A stretch of DNA of 56,233 bases from an uncultured Oscillospiraceae bacterium (GTDB lineage Bacteria > Bacillota > Clostridia > Oscillospirales > Oscillospiraceae): assembly GCA_944387055.1 (NCBI GenBank), contig CALXDL010000072.1, positions 1 to 56,233 of the forward strand. The letters run 5' to 3'. This document shows positions 39,526-52,816 of the stretch, in pieces. The number at the start of each line of letters is the position of its first letter. Position 1 is the first letter of the stretch. The translations under genes and the position numbers were made by a program. The notes beneath the pieces were generated by a model that was given only the letters and a program-made list of their open reading frames with translations, made no database searches and was not told the DNA's origin.

Positions 39526-40488
39526 TCAGCCCATCTCGGAGAGCGCAGGATCTGCCGAGAGCAGCAGCGCGCCCACCAGGACTGCATCATCCATGAGCTG
39601 GCTGGGCAGGATCCGGATCCGCCCCACGTCCGCCACGAACGCAGCCGCCTCAGTGGCCTTCCGGAGCCGGGAGAAGAGGATATCGCCCATCTTGGCCACA
39701 CCGCCGCCGATCACGATGGTGTCCGGGAAGGCGAGCGCCAGGACATCGGCCAGCCCCAGGGAGAACGTCTGCGCGACACGGTCCAGTTCCTCACAGCAGA
39801 ACGCGTCGCCCAGCCGCACGCCGTCTGCCAGGTCTGCACAGGTGTGGGGGAGAGGCCTGGCAGCGAGATAAGAGGCGGGAGGGACATAACCGGGAGAATT
39901 GAGGCGCTTTTCGATAGACGGTCCCGCACATAGATATTCCAGACGAGTGGCGGCGCCAGGTGCGGCCGCCCGCCAGTCTGGTACCCAGGCATATCCCAGG
40001 GAACTGGCGCCGAAGCCGCCGGGCCAATACAGACCGCCGCCGATACCCGTACCGATGTTGGTATAGAAGAACCTCCGGCTGCCGCGTCCGGCACCGCGAT
40101 ACAGCTCCCCGAGGCCGCCGGTCACAGTGTCATTGCGGACCACGGTCGGGAGGCGGAACGTATCATGGAACCAGTCTCGCAGGGGGAAGTCCTCCCACCC
40201 CTCCACCTGCAGAGAACAGAGGATCCGGCCAGTGGGCGGGTCGATGGGGCCGCCGAAGCCGACGCCGATCCCGCTCAGATCCCAATCTGCCTGCAGTCCG
40301 CGGACCGTCGTCTCGATCCAGCTGCGGATGCCCTTTGCAGTCGTGCCCCCGGCCAATCTCACTTGACGGCGGGCCAGGATCTGCCCATCCGCTGTCCCCA
40401 CGGCGGCTTGCTGCTTGGTGCCGCCGATCTCGATGGCCAGATGATACGGCGGACGCTCTGCTCCGCCTGGATGTGCGTTTGCCACCAT
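39526..40488 (-). CDS. ROK-family sugar kinase homologue lacking the zinc motif
   Basis: The 320-residue protein has the ROK ATPase core: phosphate-1 loop IEIGGTK (22-25), VGFGGPIDPPTG, the putative catalytic Asp in VVRND (D120), GTGIGGG (146-152) and adenosine-loop VIGGGVAKMGD. The usual CxCGxxGCxE zinc site and the preceding ExGH are not found: the region reads ASSLGYAWVPDW and LEYLCAGPSIEK. It may therefore have unusual substrate binding or be a sensor. GGGAGGGA lies 8 nt before ATG 40488. It is divergent from the LacI regulator, 264 bp away, so it is probably part of the sugar locus. Confidence 0.87.
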   Translation of the reverse strand: MVANAHPGGAERPPYHLAIEIGGTKQQAAVGTADGQILARRQVRLAGGTTAKGIRSWIETTVRGLQADWDLSGIGVGFGGPIDPPTGRILCSLQVEGWEDFPLRDWFHDTFRLPTVVRNDTVTGGLGELYRGAGRGSRRFFYTNIGTGIGGGLYWPGGFGASSLGYAWVPDWRAAAPGAATRLEYLCAGPSIEKRLNSPGYVPPASYLAARPLPHTCADLADGVRLGDAFCCEELDRVAQTFSLGLADVLALAFPDTIVIGGGVAKMGDILFSRLRKATEAAAFVADVGRIRILPSQLMDDAVLVGALLLSADPALSEMG

Positions 40489-40689
40489 AAGCTCATTCCC
40501 TCCCTAGCGATGTTTATCCATAGGCCCACAGGCGGTATCGGACGCTGGACGATGCCATGCGGCCGCCTGCTTGTGTCATGATACCACACGGACGATGAGA
40601 AGTCACTTTCGTTTCTCTTTTTACGTAAGAAAAAGAAAAATTTGTACACTCATCCGGAAAACGCACTTGAAATCTGTATATTTTAAACA

Positions 40690-40718
40690 TTGAAATGGAT
40701 TACAAAATCTGCTATATA
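40690..40718 (+). promoter_or_regulatory. Promoter of the lacI-type gene
   Basis: TTGAAA (40690-40695), 17-bp spacer, TATATA (40713-40718). The -35 is embedded in the first operator-like repeat. Confidence 0.65.
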
Positions 40719-40748
40719 TATGAATAAAGACGAATGAAAAGGATTACA
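40691..40748 (+). promoter_or_regulatory. Two LacI/CcpA-like operator repeats
   Basis: TGAAATGGATTACA (40691-40704) and TGAAAAGGATTACA (40735-40748) differ by one base and lie 44 bp apart. Each fits the cre-like pattern TGWAANCGNTNWCA except for G in place of the central C. One overlaps the -35, the other ends 4 bp before the ATG of the LacI-type gene, consistent with autoregulation or catabolite control. Confidence 0.55.
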
Positions 40749-40752
40749 TATC

Positions 40753-41763
40753 ATGGTCACGATTGCTGATGTGGCAAAGGCGGCGGGTGTTTCCGTCGCC
40801 ACGGTGTCCCGCGTGATGAATCACAGCAGTCTGGTGGCAGAGCCCACTGCGAAGGTGGTCCGCGAGGCTATCGAGCGTCTTTCCTATGTGCCGAACCAGC
40901 AGGCGAGGAACCTGCGCCGCAATGAGAGCAAGACGGTACTGGTGCTGCTCCCCAATATCACGAACCCCTATTATGCCAACGTGTTCGACGGGATCAATGA
41001 GAGGGCCCAGGCCCTGGGATATACTTTGTTCCTGTGCAGTACTGAGAGGCAGGACCCGGAGGCGCTGCTAAAAGAGACCATCGAATATAAGCGGGCGGAC
41101 GGCGCGATCTTGATGCACATCGACCGGGACGAGCGTTGGCTACAAAAGTACAGCGACCGCTTCCCAATCGTGCAGTGCTGCGAATATGCAGCGCCCTGCG
41201 ACACGGCCCATGTCTCTGTGGACAACTATCGGGCAGGGTACGAGGCCACTTCCTATTTGGTGGGGCTGGGCAGGAGGAAGGTGGGCATCATCAGTTCCGC
41301 CAATCGGATGATGTCCACGCTGCAGCGGATGCGCGGCTATCAGGACGCCTTGTCGGATGCAGGCATCTCTCTGGAAGATCGGTACATCGCCTGTTCTGAC
41401 GAGAGCTACAGCTACATGAGTAGTCTGCAGGCGGCTAGGGAACTGCTTTCTCAGCCAGACCGGCCAGATGCGCTGTTCTGCATCAGTGATGCCATCGCTT
41501 TGGCGGCGGTAGTGGTGGCGGGCGAGCTGGGGATATCCGTCCCGGAGGAGGTCTCTGTGGTGGGCTTCGACGATGTCATCTATACACAGATGATCCATCC
41601 CTATCTGTCCACCATGATTCAGCCCTGCCTTGCGCTTGGCGAGCGCGCCATCGATATGCTCGACCAGCTCATCGCTGGCCATCCATTGGAAAATCGGAAT
41701 GTCGTCCTTCCCCATGGTTTCATCGCGAGAGAATCCACCTGTCCTCTGCGGGAGGATGCCTGA
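40753..41763 (+). CDS. LacI-family transcriptional regulator of the sugar locus
   Basis: The 336-residue protein has a LacI helix-turn-helix (VTIADVAKAAGVSVATVSRV, then RLSYVPNQQARNLRR hinge) and a periplasmic-binding-protein-like sensor domain (LPNITNPYYANVFDGI, VSVDNYRAGYEATSYL, FCISDAIALAAVV, VSVVGFDDVIYTQMIHPYLS). The ligand is presumably the imported sugar or a phosphorylated product. It is the first gene of the rightward locus and has two repeats fitting LacI-type operators in its promoter. No perfect Shine-Dalgarno stands before the ATG (AAAAGGA only). Confidence 0.93.
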   Translation: MVTIADVAKAAGVSVATVSRVMNHSSLVAEPTAKVVREAIERLSYVPNQQARNLRRNESKTVLVLLPNITNPYYANVFDGINERAQALGYTLFLCSTERQDPEALLKETIEYKRADGAILMHIDRDERWLQKYSDRFPIVQCCEYAAPCDTAHVSVDNYRAGYEATSYLVGLGRRKVGIISSANRMMSTLQRMRGYQDALSDAGISLEDRYIACSDESYSYMSSLQAARELLSQPDRPDALFCISDAIALAAVVVAGELGISVPEEVSVVGFDDVIYTQMIHPYLSTMIQPCLALGERAIDMLDQLIAGHPLENRNVVLPHGFIARESTCPLREDA

Positions 41764-41769
41764 AGCGGT

Positions 41770-41794
41770 ATTTTCCGGCCGTATGGCCGAAAAA
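41770..41794 (+). terminator. Weak hairpin between lacI and the binding-protein gene
   Basis: TTTTCCGGCC pairs with GGCCGAAAAA across GTAT with one mismatch/bulge. It is AT-flanked on both sides and could attenuate read-through or act as an operator. Confidence 0.4.
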
Positions 41795-41830
41795 TAGAGG
41801 GATCTGCATAAAATTTAGAGGAGGATTACC

Positions 41831-42931
41831 ATGAAGAAGTTTCTAGCATTGGTCACGAGTCTGGCAATGGTCCTTGCAGTCCTGACAGGGTGCGGCAGCA
41901 CCAGTGACGAGAGCACCGGCGGCGATGCTGCTGGCGAGGGCGGCGATACGGCTGCTGAGACCTATAAGGTCGGTCTGGTCATCCTGTCCGGCGACCATGG
42001 ATTCACTGGCGAGTCCGTCCGCCACGCTGAGCTGGAAGCAGAGGCACTGATGGAGGAGCATGATGATCTGGAGATCGTCGTGAAGTCCTGCGCAGAGGCT
42101 TCGGCCCAGATCACTGAGATCGAGAACCTCATCGCTGAGGGCGATATCGACGCCATCATGCTCTGGCCCACGGAGGGCGAAGCGCTCCGTTCCGCCGCCC
42201 AGACCATCGTGGACGCCGGCATCAAGCTGGTGGTCTATGACCGTCTGATCGAGGACTTCGAGGGTCTGGAAGGCCAGATGATGGGCGATAACTTCAGCAT
42301 CGGTGAAGAGATGGGCGAATACCTGAATACATACTTTGCCGATGACGATCAGGTCAATTACCTGCGCTTCGTGGGCGACAGCTCCACCGTCACCTCTCAG
42401 CGTTCCGGCGGTATGGACGAAGTGATCGACGCCAACAAGTTCAACCAGATCAACGAGACGTTCGTCACCGATTGGTCCACTGAGACTGCCCAGGAGCAGA
42501 TGGAGAACTGGCTCAACGCCCACAGCGATGAAGAGATCGAGTCCCTGGATCTGATCGTCACCCATGACGACGAGATCGTGGACGGCCTGATGAACGCGCT
42601 GGATGCCTATACCGGCAGCGCACAGCTGAACGTGAAGCTCATCACGTCCGTCGGCGGCCGCGAGGATACCATGCAGAAGTTCGAGAACACGGCGCTGGAC
42701 GTGAAGTTCGTCACCTGGTTCTTCGCTCCCTCCTTCATCCGTGAGTGCGTGGACTTCACGGCTGAGACCGCTGCCATGGGCCTGCCCTTCGAGGGCACCG
42801 CTGTGGAGAGCGACGGCATCTATCTGATCCCCTCCTTCTCTATCGGCAACGCCGGCGGCACGCATTATGACTTCGAGCAGTACAGAGCCAGCGATGAGTA
42901 TGCTGTCCGCTATTCTCTCGGTGATTTCTGA
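41831..42931 (+). CDS. Sugar ABC transporter substrate-binding lipoprotein (RbsB-like)
   Basis: The 366-residue protein has a lipoprotein signal peptide (lipobox LTGC, Cys21), a Gly/Ser/Asp-rich linker and a type I periplasmic-binding fold (KVGLVILSGDHGFTGESVRH, DAIMLWPTEGEALRSAAQ, LVVYDRLI, LIVTHDDEIVDGLMNAL). This is the class that serves RbsA/RbsC-type importers of pentoses, hexoses or cyclitols. GAGGAGGATTACC precedes the ATG. A hairpin at 42964 lies between it and the ATPase gene, which would allow more binding protein than transporter to be made. Confidence 0.93.
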   Translation: MKKFLALVTSLAMVLAVLTGCGSTSDESTGGDAAGEGGDTAAETYKVGLVILSGDHGFTGESVRHAELEAEALMEEHDDLEIVVKSCAEASAQITEIENLIAEGDIDAIMLWPTEGEALRSAAQTIVDAGIKLVVYDRLIEDFEGLEGQMMGDNFSIGEEMGEYLNTYFADDDQVNYLRFVGDSSTVTSQRSGGMDEVIDANKFNQINETFVTDWSTETAQEQMENWLNAHSDEEIESLDLIVTHDDEIVDGLMNALDAYTGSAQLNVKLITSVGGREDTMQKFENTALDVKFVTWFFAPSFIRECVDFTAETAAMGLPFEGTAVESDGIYLIPSFSIGNAGGTHYDFEQYRASDEYAVRYSLGDF

Positions 42932-42963
42932 TTCTGCGGTCGATATTTGAATCATCCATTTCG

Positions 42964-42994
42964 ACAGGGCCGGCTGAAGGTCAGCCGGCCCTGT
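42964..42994 (+). terminator. Intercistronic hairpin, partial terminator
   Basis: Perfect 14-bp stem (42964-42977 with 42981-42994), AGG loop, no T run. It lies 33 bp after the binding-protein stop and probably sets relative expression or mRNA stability. Confidence 0.65.
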
Positions 42995-43129
42995 CTGCAT
43001 CCAGCCGCCCTGTATCCGGCCGCCTCTGCCTGCGCGGCGCGCCTGGCCAGGTACCCTCCATATGCGCGCCTATCCCTCTCCGGCACAGGCGGCCCGGGAT
43101 ACGAGATGTTTAGGAAAGGAACCATTGCT

Positions 43130-44659
43130 ATGCGGTTAGAGATGAAGAACATCGTCATGGAATTCGGTCCAGTCCGTGCGGTGGACGACGTGGACCTCAC
43201 GGTGGAGCCAGGGCAGATCGTGGGACTGCTGGGCGAGAACGGCGCGGGGAAATCCACCCTGATGAACGTGCTTGCCGGCGTCTATGCCCCGGTCTCCGGT
43301 AAGATCCTGATCAACGGGAAAGAGACAGTGATGAAAGGGGTGCGGACTGCGGACCAGTGCGGCATCCGTTTCATCCATCAAGAGCTGAACCTATGCAACG
43401 ACTTGCGGGTCTATGAGAACATGTTCCTCGGCAACGAGATCTCGAAGCGAGGCGCGTTCCTGGACAAGACGGCCATGATCGAGAAGTGCCTGGAAGTGTT
43501 CCGGCGCATGAAGGTCGACATCGACCCCAATGCCATCGTCGATCATCTCTCTGCTGCGGAGAAGCAGATGGTGGAGATCGGACGAGCTTTGCTGTTCCGT
43601 TCGGAACTGATCATCATGGACGAGCCCTCCACGGCACTGGCCACGGAGGAGATTGAGAATTTGTTTGAGATCATGCGGCAGCTCAAAGGGGAGGGCGTCA
43701 GCTTCATCTACATCTCTCACAAGATGCCGGAGCTCTTTGAGATCTGCGATGTGTACTATATCCTGTGCGACGGGAGATTGGTATCGCACGGGAATTTCAA
43801 AGATATCAACGAAGAACAGGTCACGGAGATGATGATCGGACACAACCTCCGGACCGACGAGTTCGAGAACCATGTCTGTCAGGCTACGGAGGAGGTCTGC
43901 CTGTCGGTGCGGGGCGTGTCCAGCGGTGTGCTGAAGGACTTGTCCTTCGAACTGCACCGGGGCGAGATCCTGGCGGTGACGGGGCTGCAGGGGTCCGGTC
44001 GTGATACGCTGGCAGACGTATTGTTCGGGGTGGTGCCCTACACGGGGGAAGTCTACGTGGAAGGCAACCGTATGCCCAACAAAGCGCGTGATCGGTCCGT
44101 GCGCTACTTCATGAAGCACCGGGTGGGCATGGTCCCCCGCTCCCGTCCGGAACGCGGGATCCACAACGACCTGTCTGTGCAGGACAATCTGTCCATGGGA
44201 TATCTGAACGCCAAGCAGAAAAAGCCGTTCATCGACGCCAAAGAGGAGGCCCAGCGGTTCGCACGGCAGCAAAAGGCCATGGCCATCAAGGTGGGCAGCC
44301 CCAAATACCCCATCACGTCCCTGTCCGGCGGCAACCAGCAGAAGGTGATCTTGGGCAAGTGGCTGGAGACGGACGCCGACGTATTGATCCTGGACAACCC
44401 GACGCAGGGCATCGACGTGGGCACGAAGTTCGAGATCTACCACCTGATCCTCCGACTGGCGAAGGCGGGGAAGGCCATCATCATGTTCAGCGCGGAGTTC
44501 CCGGAGATCCGGAACGTGGCCGATTCCTGCATCGTCCTCTACAAAGGCATGTGCAACGCCCGGCTCGGCCGGGAGGATCTGACCGAGAAAAATATCATGT
44601 ACTATTCCACGGGAGCGAATTTGGAGGGTCTGAAAGATGGAAAAACGACTGAATGCTGA
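43130..44659 (+). CDS. Sugar ABC transporter ATPase (RbsA/MglA-like, two domains)
   Basis: The 509-residue protein has two ABC modules. The first has Walker A GENGAGKSTL (38-47), the Q-loop region FIHQELNL, LSAAEKQMVEIGRALL and IIMDEPSTAL. The second has the degenerate Walker A GLQGSGRDTL, SLSGGNQQKVILGKWLE and LILDNPTQGIDVGTK, where the catalytic Glu of Walker B is Asn, as is common for the second half of sugar importers of this class. ATG 43130 has AGGAAAGGA upstream; the longer frame runs back into the hairpin. Its end overlaps the permease gene by 23 bp. Confidence 0.94.
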   Translation: MRLEMKNIVMEFGPVRAVDDVDLTVEPGQIVGLLGENGAGKSTLMNVLAGVYAPVSGKILINGKETVMKGVRTADQCGIRFIHQELNLCNDLRVYENMFLGNEISKRGAFLDKTAMIEKCLEVFRRMKVDIDPNAIVDHLSAAEKQMVEIGRALLFRSELIIMDEPSTALATEEIENLFEIMRQLKGEGVSFIYISHKMPELFEICDVYYILCDGRLVSHGNFKDINEEQVTEMMIGHNLRTDEFENHVCQATEEVCLSVRGVSSGVLKDLSFELHRGEILAVTGLQGSGRDTLADVLFGVVPYTGEVYVEGNRMPNKARDRSVRYFMKHRVGMVPRSRPERGIHNDLSVQDNLSMGYLNAKQKKPFIDAKEEAQRFARQQKAMAIKVGSPKYPITSLSGGNQQKVILGKWLETDADVLILDNPTQGIDVGTKFEIYHLILRLAKAGKAIIMFSAEFPEIRNVADSCIVLYKGMCNARLGREDLTEKNIMYYSTGANLEGLKDGKTTEC

Positions 44660-45629
44660 CACCGCGAAAAGCCTGGGCAGGGCACTGACCCGGGAGTACA
44701 GCTTCGTGCTGTCCTTCATCCTGCTGGTCGTCATCGGCGCCTGTGTCAACAAGAACTTCTTCAGCTGGAGCAATGTCTCCAATCTGTTCGTCCAGGGCAG
44801 CATGATCGGCCTGATCGCCCTGGGCATGACCATGGTCATCGGCGCAGGCCTCATCGACATCTCCGTCGGCTCCCAGGTGGCCATCATCGGCGGCTTCGGT
44901 ATCTGGGTGCTCAACGCCACAGGCAGCATCTTCGTCATGCTGCTGTTCTGCATCGCCTTCGGCCTGGTCATCGGCGCTGTCAACGGCCTGCTGGTCACCA
45001 AGGGCGGCATGCCGGCCATGGTGGCCACCCTGGCCAGCATGAGCGCCTGCCGCGCCATCGTGAACTATTACGGAGCCGCTGGCCCCTTCACTGTGGACCG
45101 GGAGCTCTATGACCGCTTCCGCCAGCTGGCGGTGGGCGGGATCCAGATCGGCCCCGACTTCAAGATCCCCTATCTGATGATCATCTTCATCGTGGCGGTG
45201 ATCATCTTCGACATCGTCATGAAGAAGACCAAGCTGGGCAAGCACATCTTCGCCGTGGGCAGCAACGAGAAATCCGCTCGTCTCTCCGGCATCAATGTGG
45301 ACGGCGTGAAGATCATCACTTATATGGTCACAGGCGCCATGTGCGGGATCGCCAGCTTGCTCTATGCCTCTCGTATGACCGCTGTGGCGGCCGCTTCCGC
45401 CGCGATGAGCTGGGAGATGGACGCCATCGCCGCCGTCGCCATTGGCGGCACCTCCATGAGCGGCGGCCGCGGCAAGATCATGGGCACGTTCCTGGGCGTG
45501 CTGATGTTCAAGATCATCAGCAACATCCTCACTGCGGCGAACGTGTCCTCTTACCTCAATGGCGCCATCAGCGCCGCCATCATCGTCCTGGCGGTCCTGA
45601 TGCAGAACTTCCAGAACAAGCGGCGCTGA
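44637..45629 (+). CDS. Sugar ABC transporter permease (RbsC-like)
   Basis: The 330-residue membrane protein has about eight to ten helices and the RbsC signatures GLIALGMTMVIGAGLIDISV and GSQVAIIGG, GMPAMVATLASM, and the coupling region FAVGSNEKSARLSGINVDGV. It forms the channel of the importer with the two-domain ATPase and the upstream lipoprotein. The gene starts 23 bp before the end of the ATPase gene with GGAGGG upstream, so translation is coupled. Substrate is presumably a sugar; type cannot be read from the permease. Confidence 0.93.
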   Translation: MEKRLNADTAKSLGRALTREYSFVLSFILLVVIGACVNKNFFSWSNVSNLFVQGSMIGLIALGMTMVIGAGLIDISVGSQVAIIGGFGIWVLNATGSIFVMLLFCIAFGLVIGAVNGLLVTKGGMPAMVATLASMSACRAIVNYYGAAGPFTVDRELYDRFRQLAVGGIQIGPDFKIPYLMIIFIVAVIIFDIVMKKTKLGKHIFAVGSNEKSARLSGINVDGVKIITYMVTGAMCGIASLLYASRMTAVAAASAAMSWEMDAIAAVAIGGTSMSGGRGKIMGTFLGVLMFKIISNILTAANVSSYLNGAISAAIIVLAVLMQNFQNKRR

Positions 45630-45669
45630 AGCGCACCGCGCGAACGACGAAAAGGAGGAACGATCCATC

Positions 45670-46710
45670 ATGATGAAAGTTGGCATCATCGGCTGTGGCA
45701 AGATCACTGAGGTCCGCCATGCACCAGAATACAGCGAAGATCCGCGCTGTGAGATCGCAGGGTTCTATGACGTGTTCCCAGAGAAGGCGGAGGCCCTGGC
45801 GAAGCAGTACGGCGGGAAAGTGTTCTCCTCTGTGGAGGAGATGCTGGCCAGCGATGTGGACGCTGTCAGTGTGTGCGTGGCCAACCGCTTCCACGCAGAG
45901 ATCAGCATCCAGGCGCTCAAGGCCGGGAAGCATGTGCTGTGCGAAAAGCCCATGGCTACCACGGAGGAAGACTGCGAAGCCATGGTGGAGGCTGCAGAGG
46001 CGGCCGGGAAATATCTGATGATCGGGCTGAACCAGCGGCTGGCCAAGGCGCATGTCAAGGCGAAGGAGCTTTTGGACAGCGGTGAGATGGGCGAGGTACT
46101 GACGTTCGAGACCCATTTCTCCCACCCCGGTCCGGAGGGCTGGACTGGGTCCGCGAACTCCTGGTTCTTCGATAAGAAGACGGCCCAGTTCGGCGTCATG
46201 GCGGACCTGGGCGTCCACAAGACGGACCTGCTCTATTATCTCACCGGAAAGAAGATCGTGCGGACATCCGCCGTGCTGGCGACGATCGACAAACGCTATC
46301 CGGACGGCAAGCTGGTGGACGTGGATGACAACGCCATCGCCCTCTATACATTGGAGAGCGGAGCTGTCGGGACGATGCACGTGAGCTGGACCAACTATGG
46401 CGCGGAGGACAACTCCACGAAGCTCTACTGTGAGAAGGGCGTCCTGCGGCTCTATGACGACCCCCGGTATTCCCTCATCGTGGAGAAGCGGGACGGCACT
46501 GTGGTCCCCTATGAGCTCGATCAGCTCACCTCCAATAAGGAACAGACTTCCGGCGGCCGGACTTCCACCGGCATCATCTCCGCTTTCGTGGACGCCGTGG
46601 TGGACGATCATGAGCCGGTCATCAGCGGCCAGAGCGCCTTGCACGCCATGAAGGTCATCTTTGCCAACCAGCGCTCCTATGAGAGCGGCCGGGCGGAGCC
46701 TGTGGACTGA
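45670..46710 (+). CDS. Gfo/Idh/MocA-family NAD(P)-dependent oxidoreductase
   Basis: The 346-residue protein has the N-terminal Rossmann motif VGIIGCGKITEVRH (GxGxxx) and the catalytic-lysine motif CEKPMATT (E92, K93, P94). The C-terminal alpha/beta domain has the usual active-site stretch FGVMADLGVHKTDLLYYL with Asp and His. Such enzymes oxidise or epimerise sugars and inositols by hydride transfer. AGGAGG lies about 11 nt before ATG ATG; the second Met is equally possible. It sits 40 bp after the permease and 13 bp before a TIM-barrel isomerase, a pair common in inositol and rare-sugar loci. Confidence 0.92.
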   Translation: MMKVGIIGCGKITEVRHAPEYSEDPRCEIAGFYDVFPEKAEALAKQYGGKVFSSVEEMLASDVDAVSVCVANRFHAEISIQALKAGKHVLCEKPMATTEEDCEAMVEAAEAAGKYLMIGLNQRLAKAHVKAKELLDSGEMGEVLTFETHFSHPGPEGWTGSANSWFFDKKTAQFGVMADLGVHKTDLLYYLTGKKIVRTSAVLATIDKRYPDGKLVDVDDNAIALYTLESGAVGTMHVSWTNYGAEDNSTKLYCEKGVLRLYDDPRYSLIVEKRDGTVVPYELDQLTSNKEQTSGGRTSTGIISAFVDAVVDDHEPVISGQSALHAMKVIFANQRSYESGRAEPVD

Positions 46711-46723
46711 GGAGGCGGCAGAC

Positions 46724-47710
46724 ATGAGACCGATCACCATCACGACTGGACAGTATGGAGATATCCACTTCGGCGAGCTTTGCCGGATCATGGGGGACAT
46801 CGGATACGATGGACTGGAGATCGCCTGCCACACCCATTTGGATGCCCACCGCTTCGCGGCGGACAGCGCTTACCGCGATGAGATCCGTTCTACCTTGGAG
46901 CGCAACGGACTGAAGGTCTGGGCGCTGGGCGCCCATTTGGCGGGCCAGTGCGTGGGCGATCAGTGGGACCCACGACTGGACAACTTCGCGCCGTCGGACC
47001 TGTCCGGCAAGCCGGAAGAGATCCGCAAGTGGGCCGTGGATGAGATGATGGCGGTGGCCCGGGCTGCCCAGATGATGGGCGTCCACATCGTCACTGGCTT
47101 CACCGGCTCGCCCATCTGGCCCTATTGGTATTCCTTCCCCCAGACCACCCAGCAGATGATCGATGACGGGTTCGGACGTATCAAAGAGCTGTGGACGCCG
47201 ATCTTCGACGTATTCGACGAGTGCGGCGTCAAGTTCGCATTGGAGGTCCACCCCACAGAGATCGCGTTCGACTATTACAGTACCCAGAAGCTGTTGGAGA
47301 CGTTCGACCATCGCCCCACACTGGGCATCAACTTCGATCCTTCGCACCTGGTCTGGCAGGGGATGGATCCGTGTCTGTTCCTGCGGGACTTCGCGGACCG
47401 CATCTACCACGTCCACATGAAGGACGTGAAGGTGCGCCTGGATGGCCGTGCCGGGATCCTCGGCAGCCATATCGAGTTCGGAGACCTGCGGCGCGGCTGG
47501 AACTTCGTGTCCCTGGGCCACGGCGACGTGGATTTCGACGGGATCATCCGGGAGCTCAACGCCATGCACTATGAGGGCCCGCTCTCTGTGGAGTGGGAGG
47601 ACTCCGGCATGGAGCGCATGTTCGGCGCGAAAGAGGCCTATGCGTTCACCAAACGCACCGATTTCGAACCTTCCACGGTGGCGTTCGACTCTGCGCTGAA
47701 AACGGAGTGA
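46724..47710 (+). CDS. Sugar phosphate isomerase/epimerase (AP endonuclease-2-like TIM barrel)
   Basis: The 328-residue protein belongs to the xylose-isomerase-like TIM barrels (IolE/IolH/tagatose-epimerase group). Probable metal ligands are in place: E174 in FALEVHP, D205 and H208 in FDPSHL, H231 in HVHMKD, E290 in SVEWED. It likely isomerises or epimerises a ketose or keto-inositol made by the dehydrogenase next to it. GAGGAGGCGGCAGAC precedes ATG 46724; the longer frame overlaps the upstream gene by 50 bp and is less likely. Confidence 0.9.
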   Translation: MRPITITTGQYGDIHFGELCRIMGDIGYDGLEIACHTHLDAHRFAADSAYRDEIRSTLERNGLKVWALGAHLAGQCVGDQWDPRLDNFAPSDLSGKPEEIRKWAVDEMMAVARAAQMMGVHIVTGFTGSPIWPYWYSFPQTTQQMIDDGFGRIKELWTPIFDVFDECGVKFALEVHPTEIAFDYYSTQKLLETFDHRPTLGINFDPSHLVWQGMDPCLFLRDFADRIYHVHMKDVKVRLDGRAGILGSHIEFGDLRRGWNFVSLGHGDVDFDGIIRELNAMHYEGPLSVEWEDSGMERMFGAKEAYAFTKRTDFEPSTVAFDSALKTE

Positions 47711-47727
47711 CGATGGAGGAGGACGCC

Positions 47728-48570
47728 ATGAACGATGCAGTCGCACAAGTGGAGATCGTCCGCCCCTGGCATGGCTTTGCCATCCGGTATGCCCTGTTCG
47801 ACTTCGATGGGACCATCAGTCTGATCCGTGAGGGCTGGCAGGATATCATGATCCCTTATTTCACGGAGGTCCTCCAAGCGGCCGCCCCCGGCGAAGAGCC
47901 GGGGGCAGTCCGGGAGCAGGTGCGGGATTTCGTGGATACCCTCACAGGGAAACAGACCATCTTCCAGTGTATCCGCCTCAATGAAGAGGTGATGGCGCGA
48001 GGAGGCCCGGAACGGGACCCTCTGCTCTACAAGCAAGAATATCTGCGCCGGCTGGAAGAGCGCATCCACTCCCGCAAAGCAGACCTCGAGACGGGGCGGG
48101 CCCGGCCGGAGGACTATCTGGTGCCAGGCGTGCGGGCGTTCATCGATCTGCTGCAGCGGAATGGGATCCGCTGCTATCTGGCAAGCGGCACTGACGAGGT
48201 GGACGTGCTGTACGAGGCCCATCTCCTGGGATTGGATGATGTGTTCGAAGGCGGCATCCACGGCGCGCACGACGATGTGATGATCTGTTCCAAAGAGCTG
48301 GTCATCCGTGACATGCTGGAGCGGGAGCATATCCGCCCCAATGAACTGGTCTCCTTCGGGGACGGGTATGTGGAGGTGGAACTGGTGGCGGACCTGGGTG
48401 GCCTGGCCATCGGTGTGGCGACCAACGAGGCCACCCGGCAAGGTGTCAACGCCTGGAAGCGCCGCCGCCTCATCGATGCCGGCGCCAGTGCCATCATCCC
48501 TGATTTCCGCGTCGGGGAGACGATCTTTGAAGTCATCAGGAGGGATCGAGATGCCATTCCCACAGTTTGA
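47728..48570 (+). CDS. HAD-family phosphatase
   Basis: The 280-residue protein has the HAD nucleophile motif LFDFDGTI (D25, D27), motif II YLASGTD and motif IV SFGDGYVEVE, followed by GGLAIGVATNE. A helical cap of about 110 residues lies between motifs I and II, as in beta-phosphoglucomutase-like members. It probably removes a phosphate from a sugar phosphate of the pathway. ATG 47728 is preceded by GGAGGAGG; an ATG at 47713 is also in frame. The gene ends 20 bp past the start of the next one. Confidence 0.88.
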   Translation: MNDAVAQVEIVRPWHGFAIRYALFDFDGTISLIREGWQDIMIPYFTEVLQAAAPGEEPGAVREQVRDFVDTLTGKQTIFQCIRLNEEVMARGGPERDPLLYKQEYLRRLEERIHSRKADLETGRARPEDYLVPGVRAFIDLLQRNGIRCYLASGTDEVDVLYEAHLLGLDDVFEGGIHGAHDDVMICSKELVIRDMLEREHIRPNELVSFGDGYVEVELVADLGGLAIGVATNEATRQGVNAWKRRRLIDAGASAIIPDFRVGETIFEVIRRDRDAIPTV

Positions 48571-49540
48571 CCGTTCCCGGCTGCAGATATTGCCGCTGGA
48601 GGAGCGGGTCCACGATGTGGACCTCCAAGAAGTATTGCTGGACCCCGCGGCACCGGCACCGGAGTTCTCGCATCCGGCGCTGCCGGTGCTGGCGGACGCC
48701 ATGGTGGAGGCCCGCCGGACCTATGATGCGACGGTACTGATGATGTACGGTGCACATGTGATCCGCACCGGCAATGCGCGCTATATGATCGAGCTGATGA
48801 AGCGGGGCCTGGTGACCCATTTCGCCACCAACGGCGCCGGTTCTATCCACGATTTCGAGCTGGCGATGATCGGGCATACGTGCGAGAGCGTTGCAAAATA
48901 CATCAGTGAGGGACAGTTCGGCCTCTGGCGTGAGACGGGCCTCATCAACGACATCATCGTCCAGGGGGCGAAAGAGGGGATCGGCTGGGGCGAGGCCCTG
49001 GGCCGCTATATCTGGGAGAACCAGTTCCCCTATCGGGAGTCCAGCGTGCTGGCCATGGGCTATCATCTCGGGGTGCCGGTCACCGTCCATGTGGGCGTGG
49101 GCAATGACATCATCCATGAACATCCCAACTGCGACGGTGCGGCCATGGGCGCTTGCTCTTATACAGATTTCCTGATCTACGCCCAGAGCGTCACCGGCTT
49201 GGAGCACGGCGTGTTCCTGGATCTCGGCTCTGCTGTGGCCGGGCCGGAGGTCTATCTCAAGGCGCTGGCGATGGCGCGGAACGTGGCCCGACAGGAGGGA
49301 CGGGAGATCTGCCATTTCCATACAGCGGTCTTCGATCTCCAGCCCATCGACGAGAGTGACGGCTATCATGTCACACCGCCGAAGACGGATCCACGATATT
49401 ATTTCCGCCCATGGAAGACGATCTTGGCCAGGACCGTCGCAGACGGCGGCACCAGCCATTATATCCGCGGAGAGCACCGGTGCACCCTGCCGAACCTGGC
49501 CAAGCTGGCCTTCGCTGCGGATGAGAGGAGCCGGGCATGA
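48551..49540 (+). CDS. Deoxyhypusine-synthase-like protein of unknown activity
   Basis: The 329-residue protein resembles the NAD-binding deoxyhypusine synthase fold. Corresponding blocks are MMYGAHVIRTG, MKRGLVTHFATNGAGSIHD (DHS: VDVLVTTAGGVEED), LGVPVTVHVGVGNDIIHEHP and GVFLDLGSAVAGPEVYLKAL. A C-terminal PWKTI (W288, K289) may match the DHS catalytic WGKI, and TLPNLAKLAF its end. Bacteria lack eIF5A, and the gene is set inside a sugar operon, so it probably works on a metabolite. AGGAGGG precedes ATG 48551. Overlap is 20 bp with the HAD gene and 4 bp (ATGA) with the kinase gene. The assignment rests on remembered motifs, so confidence is moderate. Confidence 0.6.
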   Translation: MPFPQFDRSRLQILPLEERVHDVDLQEVLLDPAAPAPEFSHPALPVLADAMVEARRTYDATVLMMYGAHVIRTGNARYMIELMKRGLVTHFATNGAGSIHDFELAMIGHTCESVAKYISEGQFGLWRETGLINDIIVQGAKEGIGWGEALGRYIWENQFPYRESSVLAMGYHLGVPVTVHVGVGNDIIHEHPNCDGAAMGACSYTDFLIYAQSVTGLEHGVFLDLGSAVAGPEVYLKALAMARNVARQEGREICHFHTAVFDLQPIDESDGYHVTPPKTDPRYYFRPWKTILARTVADGGTSHYIRGEHRCTLPNLAKLAFAADERSRA

Positions 49541-50574
49541 GGAGCGTGGAGCGGATCGTCCAGGCCCTTTCGGGAACGGGACGGATACGGGTGGCGGTGT
49601 TCGGGGACTATACGCTGGATAAGTACCTCTATATCGACCCGGACCGGGACGAACGTTCCGTCGAGACCGGGCTCACGGCCTATCAGGTCCATGAGAAGCG
49701 GATGTATGCCGGCTCCGGCGGCACAGTCACCAACAACCTGCGGGCCCTGGGGGCGCAAGTCATCTCCATCGGGCTGATGGGCGAAGATGGAGAGGGGTTC
49801 GAACTGCAGCGGTGCTTGGATGCCGTGGGAGCGGACACCGCTTCGATGGTGCGTACGCCGGAACTGTGTACCTGCACATATACGAAGCCCATGCGCAAGC
49901 AGCCCGATGGGAGCTATCAGGAGATGGAGCGGTTGGATCTGCGCAATTTCGATCCTCCGTCCATGGCACTGCAGCGGGCATTGCTGGAGCAGCTGGAAGC
50001 GCGGCTGCCGGAGGTGGACGCGGTCATCGCGGTCGATCAGTTCTGCCAGCGGGACCTGGGCGTCATCACGGGCTTCGTCCGGGACGGCTTGAACGCATTG
50101 GCGGGCAGTCATCCGGAGAAGCTGTTCTATGTGGATTCCAGGGCGTTCTCCCGGGAGTTCCGGAACATGATCGTCAAATGCAACGACTTGGAACTGATGG
50201 CCATGGCCCCCGAGGAGGGGCCCGTAGAAGATCTGGAGGCTATCCGGCGGCAGGCCGAACAGCTGCGCCGGCAGACTGGCAACACCTTCTTCGTCACCCG
50301 CGGCAGCCGTGGGATGATGGTGTTCCAGGAGGGACAGGCCTGCTCTGTCCCGGCCGTGCATGTGACGGGGCCCATCGATATCGTGGGAGCCGGGGACGCG
50401 TCTACTGCCGGCATCGTATTGGGACTCACCTTGGGCCTGGACCCGGAGGAGGCGGCCATGCTGGGTTGCTGCGTTTCCTCCATCACCATTCAGCAGCTGG
50501 GCGTCACCGGGACTGCCAGTGTCCCTCAGGTCATCGAGCGGCTGCACATCTATGAGGAGGGAGCGAGCGTATGA
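49537..50574 (+). CDS. PfkB-family carbohydrate kinase (RfaE/HldE N-domain-like)
   Basis: The 345-residue kinase has the PfkB/ribokinase signatures: FGDYTLDKYLYIDPDRDERS and GSGGTVTNNLRALGAQVISIG early, and DIVGAGDASTAGIVLGL near the end with catalytic Asp (D287). The N-terminal block VFGDYTLDKY resembles the heptose-7-phosphate kinase RfaE/HldE more than ribokinase. Together with the GmhA-like SIS gene next to it, this suggests a heptose or similar C7 sugar, but no GmhB or adenylyltransferase domain is present. It overlaps both neighbours by ATGA. Confidence 0.88.
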   Translation: MRSVERIVQALSGTGRIRVAVFGDYTLDKYLYIDPDRDERSVETGLTAYQVHEKRMYAGSGGTVTNNLRALGAQVISIGLMGEDGEGFELQRCLDAVGADTASMVRTPELCTCTYTKPMRKQPDGSYQEMERLDLRNFDPPSMALQRALLEQLEARLPEVDAVIAVDQFCQRDLGVITGFVRDGLNALAGSHPEKLFYVDSRAFSREFRNMIVKCNDLELMAMAPEEGPVEDLEAIRRQAEQLRRQTGNTFFVTRGSRGMMVFQEGQACSVPAVHVTGPIDIVGAGDASTAGIVLGLTLGLDPEEAAMLGCCVSSITIQQLGVTGTASVPQVIERLHIYEEGASV

Positions 50575-51131
50575 GCTATGTAGGATCGCTGCGTGCGTAT
50601 CTGGAAGCGGAGGAACGGGTCCTGTCAGAGCTGGACCTGGAGGCGGTGAGCCGTCTGATGGAGATGATGGAGGAAGCTCGGAAAGGGCATAAGCGCATCT
50701 TCATGTGCGGCAACGGCGGCAGTGCCGCGACGGCCTCTCACTTCGTGTGTGACTTCTGCAAGGGCGTGAGCCTGCATCAAGCGGTCAAATATGATCTGGA
50801 GTGCCTCAGCGACAATACGCCGCTGATGTCGGCCATCGCCAACGACATCAGTTATGACGATATCTTCGTCATCCCGCTGCAGGCGAAGCTGCGGCCGGGA
50901 GACCTGGTCATCGGCATCTCCGGCAGCGGCAACTCGGAGAACGTGGTGCGGGCGGTCCGCTATGCCAAAGAGCACGGCGCCGCCACCGCGGTGCTGGTGG
51001 GCTATGACGGCGGAAAGCTGTTGGAGCTGGCCGATCACGCGGTCCATGTGAAGATCGACAATATGCAGATCGTGGAGGACGTCCATATGATCTTGGACCA
51101 TATGATGATGTATGTCCTCGCGGATCGATGA
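50571..51131 (+). CDS. SIS-domain phosphosugar isomerase (GmhA-like)
   Basis: The 186-residue protein has the single SIS domain and length of GmhA/DiaA proteins: FMCGNGGSAATASHFVCDF, SDNTPLMSAIANDISYDD, VIGISGSGNSENVVRAVRYA. GmhA converts sedoheptulose 7-phosphate to D-glycero-D-manno-heptose 7-phosphate. The conserved GNGGSAA and SGSGNS loops are complete. It is the last gene of the ATGA-coupled series HAD / DHS-like / PfkB / SIS and is followed by a hairpin. Whether it acts on a heptose or another phosphosugar is open. Confidence 0.88.
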   Translation: MSYVGSLRAYLEAEERVLSELDLEAVSRLMEMMEEARKGHKRIFMCGNGGSAATASHFVCDFCKGVSLHQAVKYDLECLSDNTPLMSAIANDISYDDIFVIPLQAKLRPGDLVIGISGSGNSENVVRAVRYAKEHGAATAVLVGYDGGKLLELADHAVHVKIDNMQIVEDVHMILDHMMMYVLADR

Positions 51132-51149
51132 CGTCTGCAGGGATACAAT

Positions 51150-51182
51150 GCGGCCCCCGGGAGCAAAGCCCCCGGGGGCCGC
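51150..51182 (+). terminator. Hairpin after the sugar operon
   Basis: GCGGCCCCCGGG (51150-51161) pairs with CCCGGGGGCCGC (51171-51182), 9-base loop, 18 bp after the stop. No T run. Confidence 0.7.
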
Positions 51183-51190
51183 GTCGGATG

Positions 51191-51589: not shown

Positions 51590-52132
51590 CTATGCAAGAG
51601 GCTGGAAGGACCGCCCCGTCAAAAGATCGCGCCAAGTGAACGAACCGTCCTCGAGGATCATGTAGCTGTGGGGCGTGCCGTCTTTTGGCAGAGACAAAGA
51701 GCCGGGATTCAGATAACGAAAGCCGCCGCAGTCCCGGTCCACCGGGAGGTGCGTGTGGCCGCAGAGGAGGATGTCCCCCGTCCGCAGGGGCGGCGGTGCC
51801 TCTGGGCTGTGGAGGTGCCCGTGGGTGACGTAGATCGTCAGCCCATCCAGAGCCAGCAGGGCGCTGTCCGCCTGGATGGGGAACGTGAGCACCATCTGAT
51901 CCACCTCTGCATCGCAGTTGCCGCGGACACAGAAGAGCCGGTCTGCCGCCTCATTCAGCAAGGCGGTGACGGTCTTGGGATCGTAGCCCTCCGGCAAGTC
52001 GTTGCGGGGGCCGTGATAGAGCAGGTCACCCAACAGCACCAGCCGGTCACCACCCTCCCGGGCGAAAGCGTCCAGCAGCATCCGGCAGTACAGGGCGGAT
52101 CCATGGAGATCCGATGCGATCCATACTTTCAT
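51590..52132 (-). CDS. yfcE: YfcE/MJ0936-type metallophosphodiesterase
   Basis: The 180-residue protein has the calcineurin-like motifs of YfcE: KVWIASDLHGS, VLLGDLLYHGPR, CVRGNCDAEVDQM, YVTHGHLHS and LLCGHTHLPVDR, then YLNPGSLSLP. These supply all expected metal ligands. The enzyme splits phosphodiester bonds; the natural substrate of the family is unclear. ATG 52132 is chosen because AAGGAG lies 9 nt upstream; ATG 52138 is an alternative. Confidence 0.93.
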   Translation of the reverse strand: MKVWIASDLHGSALYCRMLLDAFAREGGDRLVLLGDLLYHGPRNDLPEGYDPKTVTALLNEAADRLFCVRGNCDAEVDQMVLTFPIQADSALLALDGLTIYVTHGHLHSPEAPPPLRTGDILLCGHTHLPVDRDCGGFRYLNPGSLSLPKDGTPHSYMILEDGSFTWRDLLTGRSFQPLA

Positions 52133-52279
52133 GTTCATTCTCTCCTTCCTTAGGGTCAGGGTACCGGGCAACAGCAAGATCCAGGCGGACGAGGGAACGT
52201 GCCTGGATGGACCATCCTCCCGGCTCAAAGATGATGATATGATGAGACGAAAAGACAGGAAAAAGCGGAGGTGCTTATT

Positions 52280-52816
52280 ATGACACGGTTCCAGATCCTC
52301 GTAGGGGATATCACACAGTCTGACGCGGAGGCCATCGTCAATGCGGCTGATACCGCTCTGCTAGGGGGCGGAGGAGTGGACGGTGCCATCCACCGGGCAG
52401 CAGGCCCGGAGCTGTTGGCAGCGTGCAGGGAGCTGCACGGCTGCGAGACGGGACAGGCCAAGCTGACGGCCGGATACCGGCTCAAGGCCCGTTATGTGAT
52501 CCACACGGCAGGGCCGGTCTGGCAGGGAGGCGGCCATGGAGAGGCGGCGCTGCTGGCATCTTGCTACCGCACCTGTCTGGCGCTGGCGCGGGCACATGGT
52601 ATCCGGACCGTGGATGTCCCATCCATCTCCACGGGCACTTTTGGCTATCCTCTGGCGCAGGCGGCCACAGTGGCGCTGCGGGCCATCATGGAGTATCTGG
52701 CGGAGAACGACCTGCCGGAACGGGTGCGGATGATCTGCCATACAGAGGCGGCGGCCGCTGTGTACCGTCAGACTTTCAACCTCTGGTTTGCGGAGGACAA
52801 GCAGAGCCGGATGTGA
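52280..52816 (+). CDS. Macro-domain ADP-ribose hydrolase (YmdB type)
   Basis: The 178-residue protein is a single macro domain: QILVGDITQSDAEAIVNAAD, LLGGGGVDGAIHRAAG, AGYRLKARYVIHTAGPVW, ISTGTFGYPLAQAA and the C-terminal VRMICHTEAAAAVY. Family members remove acetyl or ADP-ribosyl groups (O-acetyl-ADP-ribose deacetylase). ATG 52280 is preceded by GCGGAGG at 8 nt; a GTG three codons earlier overlaps that site. It is a single gene, with no ADP-ribosyltransferase or sirtuin partner visible in the window. Confidence 0.94.
   Translation: MTRFQILVGDITQSDAEAIVNAADTALLGGGGVDGAIHRAAGPELLAACRELHGCETGQAKLTAGYRLKARYVIHTAGPVWQGGGHGEAALLASCYRTCLALARAHGIRTVDVPSISTGTFGYPLAQAATVALRAIMEYLAENDLPERVRMICHTEAAAAVYRQTFNLWFAEDKQSRM

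Follow-up and report, generated by a model that had tools for sequence, protein, structure and literature searches.

A sugar-uptake operon joined to a conserved gene core around a GSU2086-family protein of predicted deoxyhypusine-synthase-superfamily fold

The DNA analyzed here (the window) is a stretch of 56,233 nucleotides, contig CALXDL010000072.1 of an uncultured Oscillospiraceae bacterium (assembly GCA_944387055.1), and between positions 39,526 and 51,131 it carries a sugar locus that is composed of two parts (Table 1). The first part encodes a LacI-family regulator, a sugar-binding lipoprotein, the ATPase and permease of an ATP-binding cassette (ABC) importer, a Gfo/Idh/MocA dehydrogenase and a TIM-barrel protein. 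The second, referred to below as the core, encodes a HAD-superfamily phosphatase, a protein of the GSU2086 family, a PfkB kinase and a SIS-domain isomerase. All of the genes named by a first-pass annotation, made from the letters and their open reading frames (ORFs), are present where it placed them as judged from ORFs, Pfam and NCBIfam, and the overlaps that it described are correct to the base: the HAD and GSU2086 genes overlap by exactly 20 bp, and the GSU2086/PfkB and PfkB/SIS pairs each overlap by the tetranucleotide ATGA. Overall, the locus combines a glycoside operon of familiar type with an undescribed, widespread phosphosugar module around an uncharacterised family.

All of the genes from LacI through SIS are transcribed from the forward strand, GGAGG-like sites lie close upstream of most of them, and only two intergenic gaps are longer than 50 bp, one of 67 bp and one of about 198 bp. 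The latter, the longest, separates the binding-protein gene from the ATPase gene, whose start is read from the bases as the ATG at 43130. Strong G+C-rich inverted repeats were noted by eye at 42963-42996, within this gap, and at 51149-51184, just 3' of the SIS gene; the first resembles a site of processing or attenuation, the second a terminator. As the genes share one strand, mostly with ribosome-binding-like sites and short spacing, and with one inverted repeat in the long gap and another after SIS, the LacI-to-SIS run is likely to be a single operon. Gene calls in the comparisons below are simple ORFs with codon scoring, and antisense ORFs were disregarded by eye.

Table 1. Genes of the sugar locus, with the sequence matches on which their names are based (scores given as bits obtained of bits required where a cut-off applies).
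Feature	Position	Strand	Basis and remarks
ROK-family sugar kinase-like protein	39526-40488	-	Divergent from LacI; Pfam ROK 118 bits; ROK_glcA_fam 110 of 260 bits
LacI-family regulator, operon head	40753-41763	+	Pfam LacI and Peripla_BP_3
Sugar-binding lipoprotein, XylF/ChvE-like	41831-42931	+	Peripla_BP_4 98 bits; XylF 65 of 390 bits; top PDB sequence 4joq
RbsA/XylG-like ABC ATPase	43130-44659	+	Two ABC_tran stretches; xylose-type NF010069 456 of 699 bits
RbsC-like permease	44637-45629	+	BPD_transp_2 130 bits
Gfo/Idh/MocA dehydrogenase, likely glycoside 3-dehydrogenase	45670-46710	+	Pfam; top PDB sequence DgpA 7xr9, 118 bits
TIM barrel, likely 3-keto-glycoside lyase/2-hydroxy-3-keto-glucal hydratase (LgdB2-like)	46724-47710	+	2zds and 8ro4 matches
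HAD-superfamily phosphatase of the core	47728-48570	+	Pfam Hydrolase 50 bits; HAD-IB 34 of 45 bits
GSU2086-family protein, predicted deoxyhypusine-synthase-superfamily fold, core center	48551-49540	+	NF052581 388 of 250 bits
PfkB kinase, nearest HldE kinase domain	49537-50574	+	PfkB 91 bits; TIGR02198 127 of 345 bits; PDB 4e84 46 bits
SIS-domain isomerase, GmhA-like, two canonical residues altered	50571-51131	+	TIGR00441 107 of 209 bits; GmhA structures top

The protein at the center of the core is assigned by sequence to the GSU2086 family, scoring 388.2 bits over residues 5-318 against NCBIfam model NF052581 (cut-off 250). It had been called deoxyhypusine-synthase (DHS)-like, and a structural counterpart of this resemblance is found: for an AlphaFold2 model derived from 58 family members (pLDDT 92.6), the best 50 Foldseek matches are all AgrE, LOR/SDH, ArgZ or DHS proteins, with E values of 5.8e-8 to 6.1e-6, TM-scores (query length) of 0.44-0.55 and identities of 11-14%. 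The DHS label itself does not stand, as the protein scores just 12.5 of 27 bits (E = 0.087) with Pfam PF01916 and 13 of 304 bits with TIGR00321, and falls below the homospermidine synthase cut-off. Since the structural matches are of the DHS kinds while NF052581 is passed and the Pfam DHS model leaves only a trace, the protein is predicted to have a DHS-superfamily fold and yet to belong to a separate family that is not a DHS. A phmmer search of PDB sequences with the protein gives no match, the family profile matches ArgZ, AgrE and LOR/SDH sequences there and is alignable over about 70-80 residues, and the window's own genome has no PF01916 match at E 0.001.

The E..SWGK block, which we take to contain the catalytic lysine of DHS, is present in all 16 PF01916 members compared, 14 of which have the longer form SG.T..E..SWGK, whereas SWGK is found in none of the 58 rows of the GSU2086 alignment (58 of 66 diverse sequences), and 50 of these rows have RPWK or RPRK at that place. 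When a global profile alignment with the 16 DHS members is forced, RPWK falls no more than one column from SWGK, but a free local profile alignment with two DHS members covers only 69 columns; a transfer of the DHS lysine to RPWK is at most hinted at. The family is well conserved, with a mean column identity of 57% over the 58 rows, and its invariant residues include R19, H69, N94, H100, D101, E103, E112, W126, H180, D186, K237, R286 and H309; the many polar ones among them would be compatible with binding of a charged compound, for instance a sugar phosphate. DHS and ornithine cyclodeaminase perform redox-neutral chemistry with a retained NAD, and by analogy our best inference is that the GSU2086 protein would carry out an NAD-assisted step on a sugar.

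A nickel-pincer cofactor, hinted at by the NCBIfam name of TIGR00300, was also considered for the GSU2086 protein. LarC (PF01969) was found in just 19 of 32 core genomes, some of them incomplete, and such a requirement is unlikely because LarC was not found in the other 13; in open-access literature no paper was found that combined both of the search terms for this cofactor. The 32 genomes were hand-picked, as in each of the core-genome surveys below.

Gene neighborhoods were compared at 80 loci, the best 80 of 382 relatives of the GSU2086 protein. Within 3 kb of the GSU2086 gene, PfkB is found at 65 of these loci, HAD at 53 and SIS at 47, and all three partners at 41 (36 of the 66 with enough flanking sequence). 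The corresponding control counts at a distance of 5-9 kb are zero for PfkB, one for HAD and zero for SIS, at 56 loci of which some have a single long flank only. Neighborhoods of these four genes are thus frequent and span several phyla, and some of the genes are even fused. SIS and HAD occur together in 29 ORFs, and GSU2086 is fused to SIS in two genomes, in locus L003 (the same gene in L122) and in a second gene of L088; that fusions occur in two different pairings argues that the core serves one pathway. All four genes are found together in representatives of Bacillota, Planctomycetota (L084), Bacteroidota (L061), Spirochaetota (L070), Synergistota (L101) and Armatimonadota (L096). Representatives of Chloroflexota (L088), Abditibacteriota (L094) and Omnitrophota (L104) have three of them together. 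The four-enzyme core is thus widely shared but uncharacterised. ROK matches lie within 3 kb of GSU2086 at nine of the 80 loci, where they would be kinases or regulators, and the ROK gene of the window is 8 kb away.

The closest named relatives of two of the partners are enzymes of heptose synthesis. GmhA (TIGR00441) is the best NCBIfam relative of the SIS protein, at a score below the cut-off, and GmhA structures are its best PDB matches. Where the aligned GmhA structures have H-x3-E and Q-x7-H, residues with a presumed catalytic or metal-binding role, the SIS protein of the window has H-x3-D and E-x7-H, and so lacks the full GmhA set. Similarly, the HldE kinase model TIGR02198 is the best NCBIfam match of the PfkB protein, again below its cut-off, and its top PDB sequence is a heptose 7-phosphate kinase (4e84). 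A GSU2086 tree of 83 rows (78 of 88 plus five added; nine were excluded by length, including L032, as was L004, which is from the same genome as L121) separates a small clade of five rows on a long branch from a large clade containing the window. In the subset of loci in which the SIS residues were compared (24 + 4 rows), the E and Q of GmhA are kept in 4 of 4 isomerase rows from the small clade, and D and E replace them in 24 of 24 rows from the large one. As SIS splits in the same way as the GSU2086 tree, the isomerase and the GSU2086 protein seem to have changed together. We also note that two Bacteroidales loci (L060 and L061) each have two adjacent GSU2086 genes, paralogues that lie on separate branches of the tree and may form a hetero-oligomer.

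A different set of relatives is seen for the first part of the locus. The barrel matches PDB entry 2zds, titled merely 'putative DNA-binding protein', with 341 bits, and its nearest structure of named function is the '2-hydroxy-3-keto-glucal hydratase' 8ro4, with 179 bits over residues 24-326. The E of ExHP, the D of DPSH, the H of an HxKD stretch and the E of EWE, presumably metal ligands, align between the barrel and 8ro4; the H of the HxKD stretch is a D in 2zds. The nearest PDB sequence of the Gfo/Idh protein is DgpA, and the window protein scores 115 of 650 bits, below the cut-off, with the levoglucosan dehydrogenase (LgdA) model NF052479.

The levoglucosan cluster of Bacillus smithii contains LacI, an ABC importer, Gfo/Idh enzymes and barrels, with a haloalkanoic acid dehalogenase gene beside it, and its LgdB2 is reported to be bifunctional (PMC7676230); LgdB2 belongs to a cluster of proteins of about 325 residues (PMC10066097). 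The 3-keto-glycoside system of Agrobacterium works alike (PMC10628242), and the four-step logic is recounted in PMC13273386 and touched on in PMC12101588. DgpA oxidizes glycosides at C3 and regenerates its NAD with 3-oxo-glucose (PMC11239390), and a single Gfo/Idh enzyme can therefore suffice. Because of the kinship of the barrel and Gfo/Idh proteins and the levoglucosan-type gene set, we read the first part as a putative module for non-hydrolytic cleavage of 3-keto-glycosides. In a genome without GSU2086 over the cut-off, locus L135:6036-14777 has the barrel together with an importer, Gfo/Idh and, by eye, xylose-isomerase-like and xylulokinase-like (FGGY-like) genes, which suggests cleavage of a xyloside by a 3-keto route.

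The association of the two parts is recurrent but scattered. At 12 of the 80 loci, import or 3-keto genes of high identity (45% or more; 39% for the binding protein) are found no farther than 11 kb from the core, with at least three such genes at 10, and genome G298 (L121) also has such genes by its core; their orders and strands differ among loci. A label pooling importer and 3-keto genes marks 13 of the 83 tree rows and requires 8 changes, 7 of them forced by well-supported branches. Shuffled labels require 12.3, so the label is clustered and yet not explained by a single event. Among 398 genomes of the phylum, GSU2086 is over the cut-off in 8 (the number used here; 41 match at E 0.001), the barrel is present in 16 and both are present in 5 (hypergeometric p = 2.8e-6, or 4.4e-5 when the window's own genome is left out, with kinship not corrected). 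The two genes are within 10 kb in three of these five genomes, including that of the window, and on different contigs in two. The barrel is found in 17 of the 32 core genomes. Other 3-keto-glycoside enzymes also meet the core: an unrelated 3-keto-disaccharide hydrolase of family PF06439 (128 bits) adjoins it together with Gfo/Idh in L040. A single-strand run at L122:4449-13816 (-) contains three TIM barrels, two Gfo/Idh genes, the GSU2086-SIS fusion, HAD and PfkB.

As regards the sugar, the first-pass annotation proposed an unusual one, heptose-like or a cyclitol, for the whole locus. The heptose-like part of this proposal is reasonable in view of the GmhA and HldE kinship, and the cyclitol part finds no support in the inositol-enzyme scores given below or in the relatives of the barrel. 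In Geobacter sulfurreducens, GSU2086 is numbered between hldE (GSU2085) and gmhA (GSU2087), and the fitness values of hldE, GSU2086 and gmhA in a table are alike, at -3.1, -3.2 and -3.7 (PMC5585712). Given the resemblance of SIS to GmhA and of PfkB to HldE, and this position of GSU2086 in Geobacter, a heptose-like phosphosugar is our best guess for the substrate. A Lachnospiraceae locus, L077:8864-18083, encodes a GmhA-like SIS protein, a GmhB-like HAD protein (by eye; Pfam Hydrolase_like), GSU2086 and an HldE-like fusion of nucleotidyltransferase and PfkB in inverted HldE order, followed by two further genes and then by a transketolase of which the N-half was recognized by family search and the C-half by eye; it is possibly an unusual nucleotide-heptose locus. 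This run, the GmhA and HldE kinship and the Geobacter data together point to heptose phosphates. In the open-access literature searched, we found no function for GSU2086, which is named only in the table of PMC5585712 as far as the available text goes, no DHS-like protein linked with heptose, SIS or PfkB among the papers listed, nothing of use on the gene set, and no paper on heptose catabolism.

Searches of the window's own genome, an assembly that is 85% complete, gave no match to the HldE-type nucleotidyltransferase TIGR02199, a score of 126 of 275 bits (below the cut-off) for the HldD model TIGR02197, one class II aldolase match (PF01116) outside the operon, and four NTP_transf_3 matches, two of them over the cut-off, so that nucleotidyltransferases of other kinds are possible. 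No HldE-type nucleotidyltransferase was matched in 21 of the 32 core genomes, including the window's own and the single-contig G298. Because this match is lacking and the core of the window is coupled to an importer, plain ADP-heptose synthesis fits poorly, and we favor a core that salvages or degrades a heptose-like sugar. HldD is over the cut-off in none of the 32 core genomes and in two of 14 control genomes; as the controls mostly lack it too, its absence says little, and the idea that GSU2086 replaces HldD, as drawn from this absence, was set aside as uninformative. Downstream of the operon are genes for a YfcE-like phosphodiesterase (51590-52228, reverse strand) and a macrodomain-like protein (52271-52816), both named by eye.

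A plausible scenario, to which we give a probability of slightly less than one half (about 0.48), is that the operon, under LacI control, serves to take up a glycoside or a similar sugar that would be opened without hydrolysis, and carries along a separate core for a heptose-like phosphosugar. The Gfo/Idh enzyme would oxidize C3, and the barrel would eliminate the leaving group and hydrate the resulting 3-keto-glucal. The core, separate, more widespread and translationally coupled behind these genes, would handle a phosphorylated and probably seven-carbon sugar: PfkB (or ROK) may phosphorylate it, SIS may interconvert aldose and ketose phosphates and HAD may remove phosphate. GSU2086 would keep its NAD bound and contribute a reaction without net redox change, as in DHS and ornithine cyclodeaminase, most likely an epimerization or an oxidation-assisted elimination or addition on the phosphosugar. 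What is observed is the gene set with its exact overlaps, the predicted fold, the conserved and sometimes fused core and the import coupling in scattered loci; every substrate, the cofactor, the GSU2086 chemistry and the sequence of reactions in the core are inferred. A wider and more speculative extension is that GSU2086 proteins represent a sugar-acting branch of the DHS superfamily, NAD-retaining phosphosugar epimerases or lyases in an undescribed mobile SIS/HAD/PfkB module for heptose-like sugars, which in some Bacillota is plugged into importers and 3-keto-glycoside cleavage and elsewhere into nucleotide-heptose loci.

Several observations weigh against this scenario. The core is incomplete or absent around some GSU2086 genes: 11 of the 80 loci, 9 of them with enough flank, have no core partner within 3 kb, and in six loci (L076, L078, L081, L086, L089 and L092) GSU2086 is followed by a gene that is purH-like by eye and has none of PfkB, HAD and SIS as an immediate neighbor. 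No high-identity import or 3-keto gene is seen at 68 of the 80 loci, many on short contigs, the barrel is lacking from 15 of the 32 core genomes, including that of L031, whose GSU2086 is nearest to that of the window in the tree, and GSU2086 over the cut-off is missing from 11 of the 16 barrel genomes; in the six of these 11 that were inspected, the barrel has a Gfo/Idh homologue beside it in all six and an importer in five. The label changes on the tree may represent gains, but also losses or truncated contigs. Within the operon there is no aldolase or other enzyme to close a catabolic route, and the pairing of a phosphatase with a kinase would be unusual in a catabolic pathway. At five loci (L068, L072-L074 and L077, three of them near-copies), GSU2086 is found next to a nucleotidyltransferase-PfkB fusion in a biosynthetic-looking setting, examined by family search in L077 only, and the likeness of the Geobacter fitness values may reflect polar effects.

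With so many core loci lacking import and 3-keto genes, and so many barrel genomes lacking GSU2086, the two parts need not be one pathway; they are two modules, each also found without the other. The interpretation first proposed for the whole locus is supported in part: the core genes often stay together and the import genes adjoin them in a scattered minority of loci, but the operon, treated there as one pathway, combines modules that also occur alone.

The strongest competing explanation, although still unlikely, is that the core is a biosynthetic module for heptose 1-phosphate (NDP-heptose) in which SIS is GmhA, PfkB is HldA, HAD is GmhB and GSU2086 is an accessory protein or replaces the epimerase HldD, with the sugar operon merely beside it. 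The relationships of SIS and PfkB, the L077 run, the order of Geobacter locus numbers, the lack of HldD over the cut-off in the core genomes and the two NTP_transf_3 proteins of the window's genome are all in keeping with it, but the HldE-type nucleotidyltransferase is unmatched in most core genomes, the window's and the single-contig one among them, the core of the window follows an importer with translational coupling, and HldD is scarce among the controls as well. Less probable again is a reworking of the 3-keto-sugar by the core, with SIS shifting the keto group in the manner of 6-phospho-3-hexuloisomerase, PfkB phosphorylating and GSU2086 acting as the reductase in place of LgdC. The single Gfo/Idh gene of the operon, the meeting of the core with differing 3-keto-glycoside enzymes (PF06439 included) and the fact that HxlB is also a SIS protein would agree with this, whereas the SIS protein scores far higher with GmhA (107 bits) than with HxlB (40 bits), the barrel is missing from nearly half of the core genomes, and the core of L132 is accompanied by ROK and importer genes but by no barrel over 18 kb, albeit with a distant Gfo/Idh homologue 2 kb upstream; DgpA can itself reduce 3-oxo-glucose. 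An operon for inositol or cyclitol catabolism, the association first drawn from the Gfo/Idh gene and the xylose-isomerase-like barrel, is very improbable and was rejected, as the weak scores with the two inositol models are below their cut-offs (IolE, 58 of 290 bits; IolG, 156 of 355 bits), the barrel is far closer to 2zds and 8ro4 than to the IolE structure 3cny (31 bits), and PfkB has 42 bits with IolC and 127 with HldE. Equally hard to credit is a true deoxyhypusine or homospermidine synthase that acts on polyamines or protein and is beside sugar genes by chance, since the shared fold and faint PF01916 trace are set against scores below all of the corresponding cut-offs, the missing SWGK block, the sugar enzymes adjoining it at most loci and the two genomes in which it is joined to a sugar isomerase in one gene.

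If the scenario of glycoside import with a separate heptose-like phosphosugar core is correct, sugar metabolism would be added to the polyamine and amino-acid chemistry for which this fold is known, and a pathway for heptose-like sugars might be uncovered; we know of no role on a phosphorylated sugar in the DHS superfamily. With the levoglucosan and 3-keto-glycoside operons (LgdA-B1-B2-C, DgpA and AtOGE/AtHYD) the locus shares LacI, an ABC importer, Gfo/Idh and a barrel of about 325 residues of the hydratase kind, but it has only one Gfo/Idh and one barrel, and it adds the HAD, GSU2086, PfkB and SIS genes, of which the available portions of those reports make no mention apart from the dehalogenase gene beside the B. 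smithii cluster. With ADP- and GDP-heptose synthesis (GmhA, HldE/HddA, GmhB) it shares the logic of isomerase, PfkB kinase and HAD phosphatase, and GmhA and HldE are the nearest named relatives of its SIS and PfkB proteins; however, both proteins are below every cut-off, the SIS residues are altered, and the best Pfam match of its HAD protein differs from that of the GmhB-like HAD in L077. What GSU2086 has in common with DHS, the AgrE-ArgZ ornithine cyclodeaminases and LOR/SDH is the fold, whereas it lacks the SWGK block, is only 11-14% identical and is found in a context of sugar phosphates rather than of polyamines or amino acids. The window protein is by sequence a member of the family NF052581, the name of which states no function, and its gene in the window is coupled to those of an importer, a Gfo/Idh dehydrogenase and a barrel resembling 3-keto-glucal hydratase.

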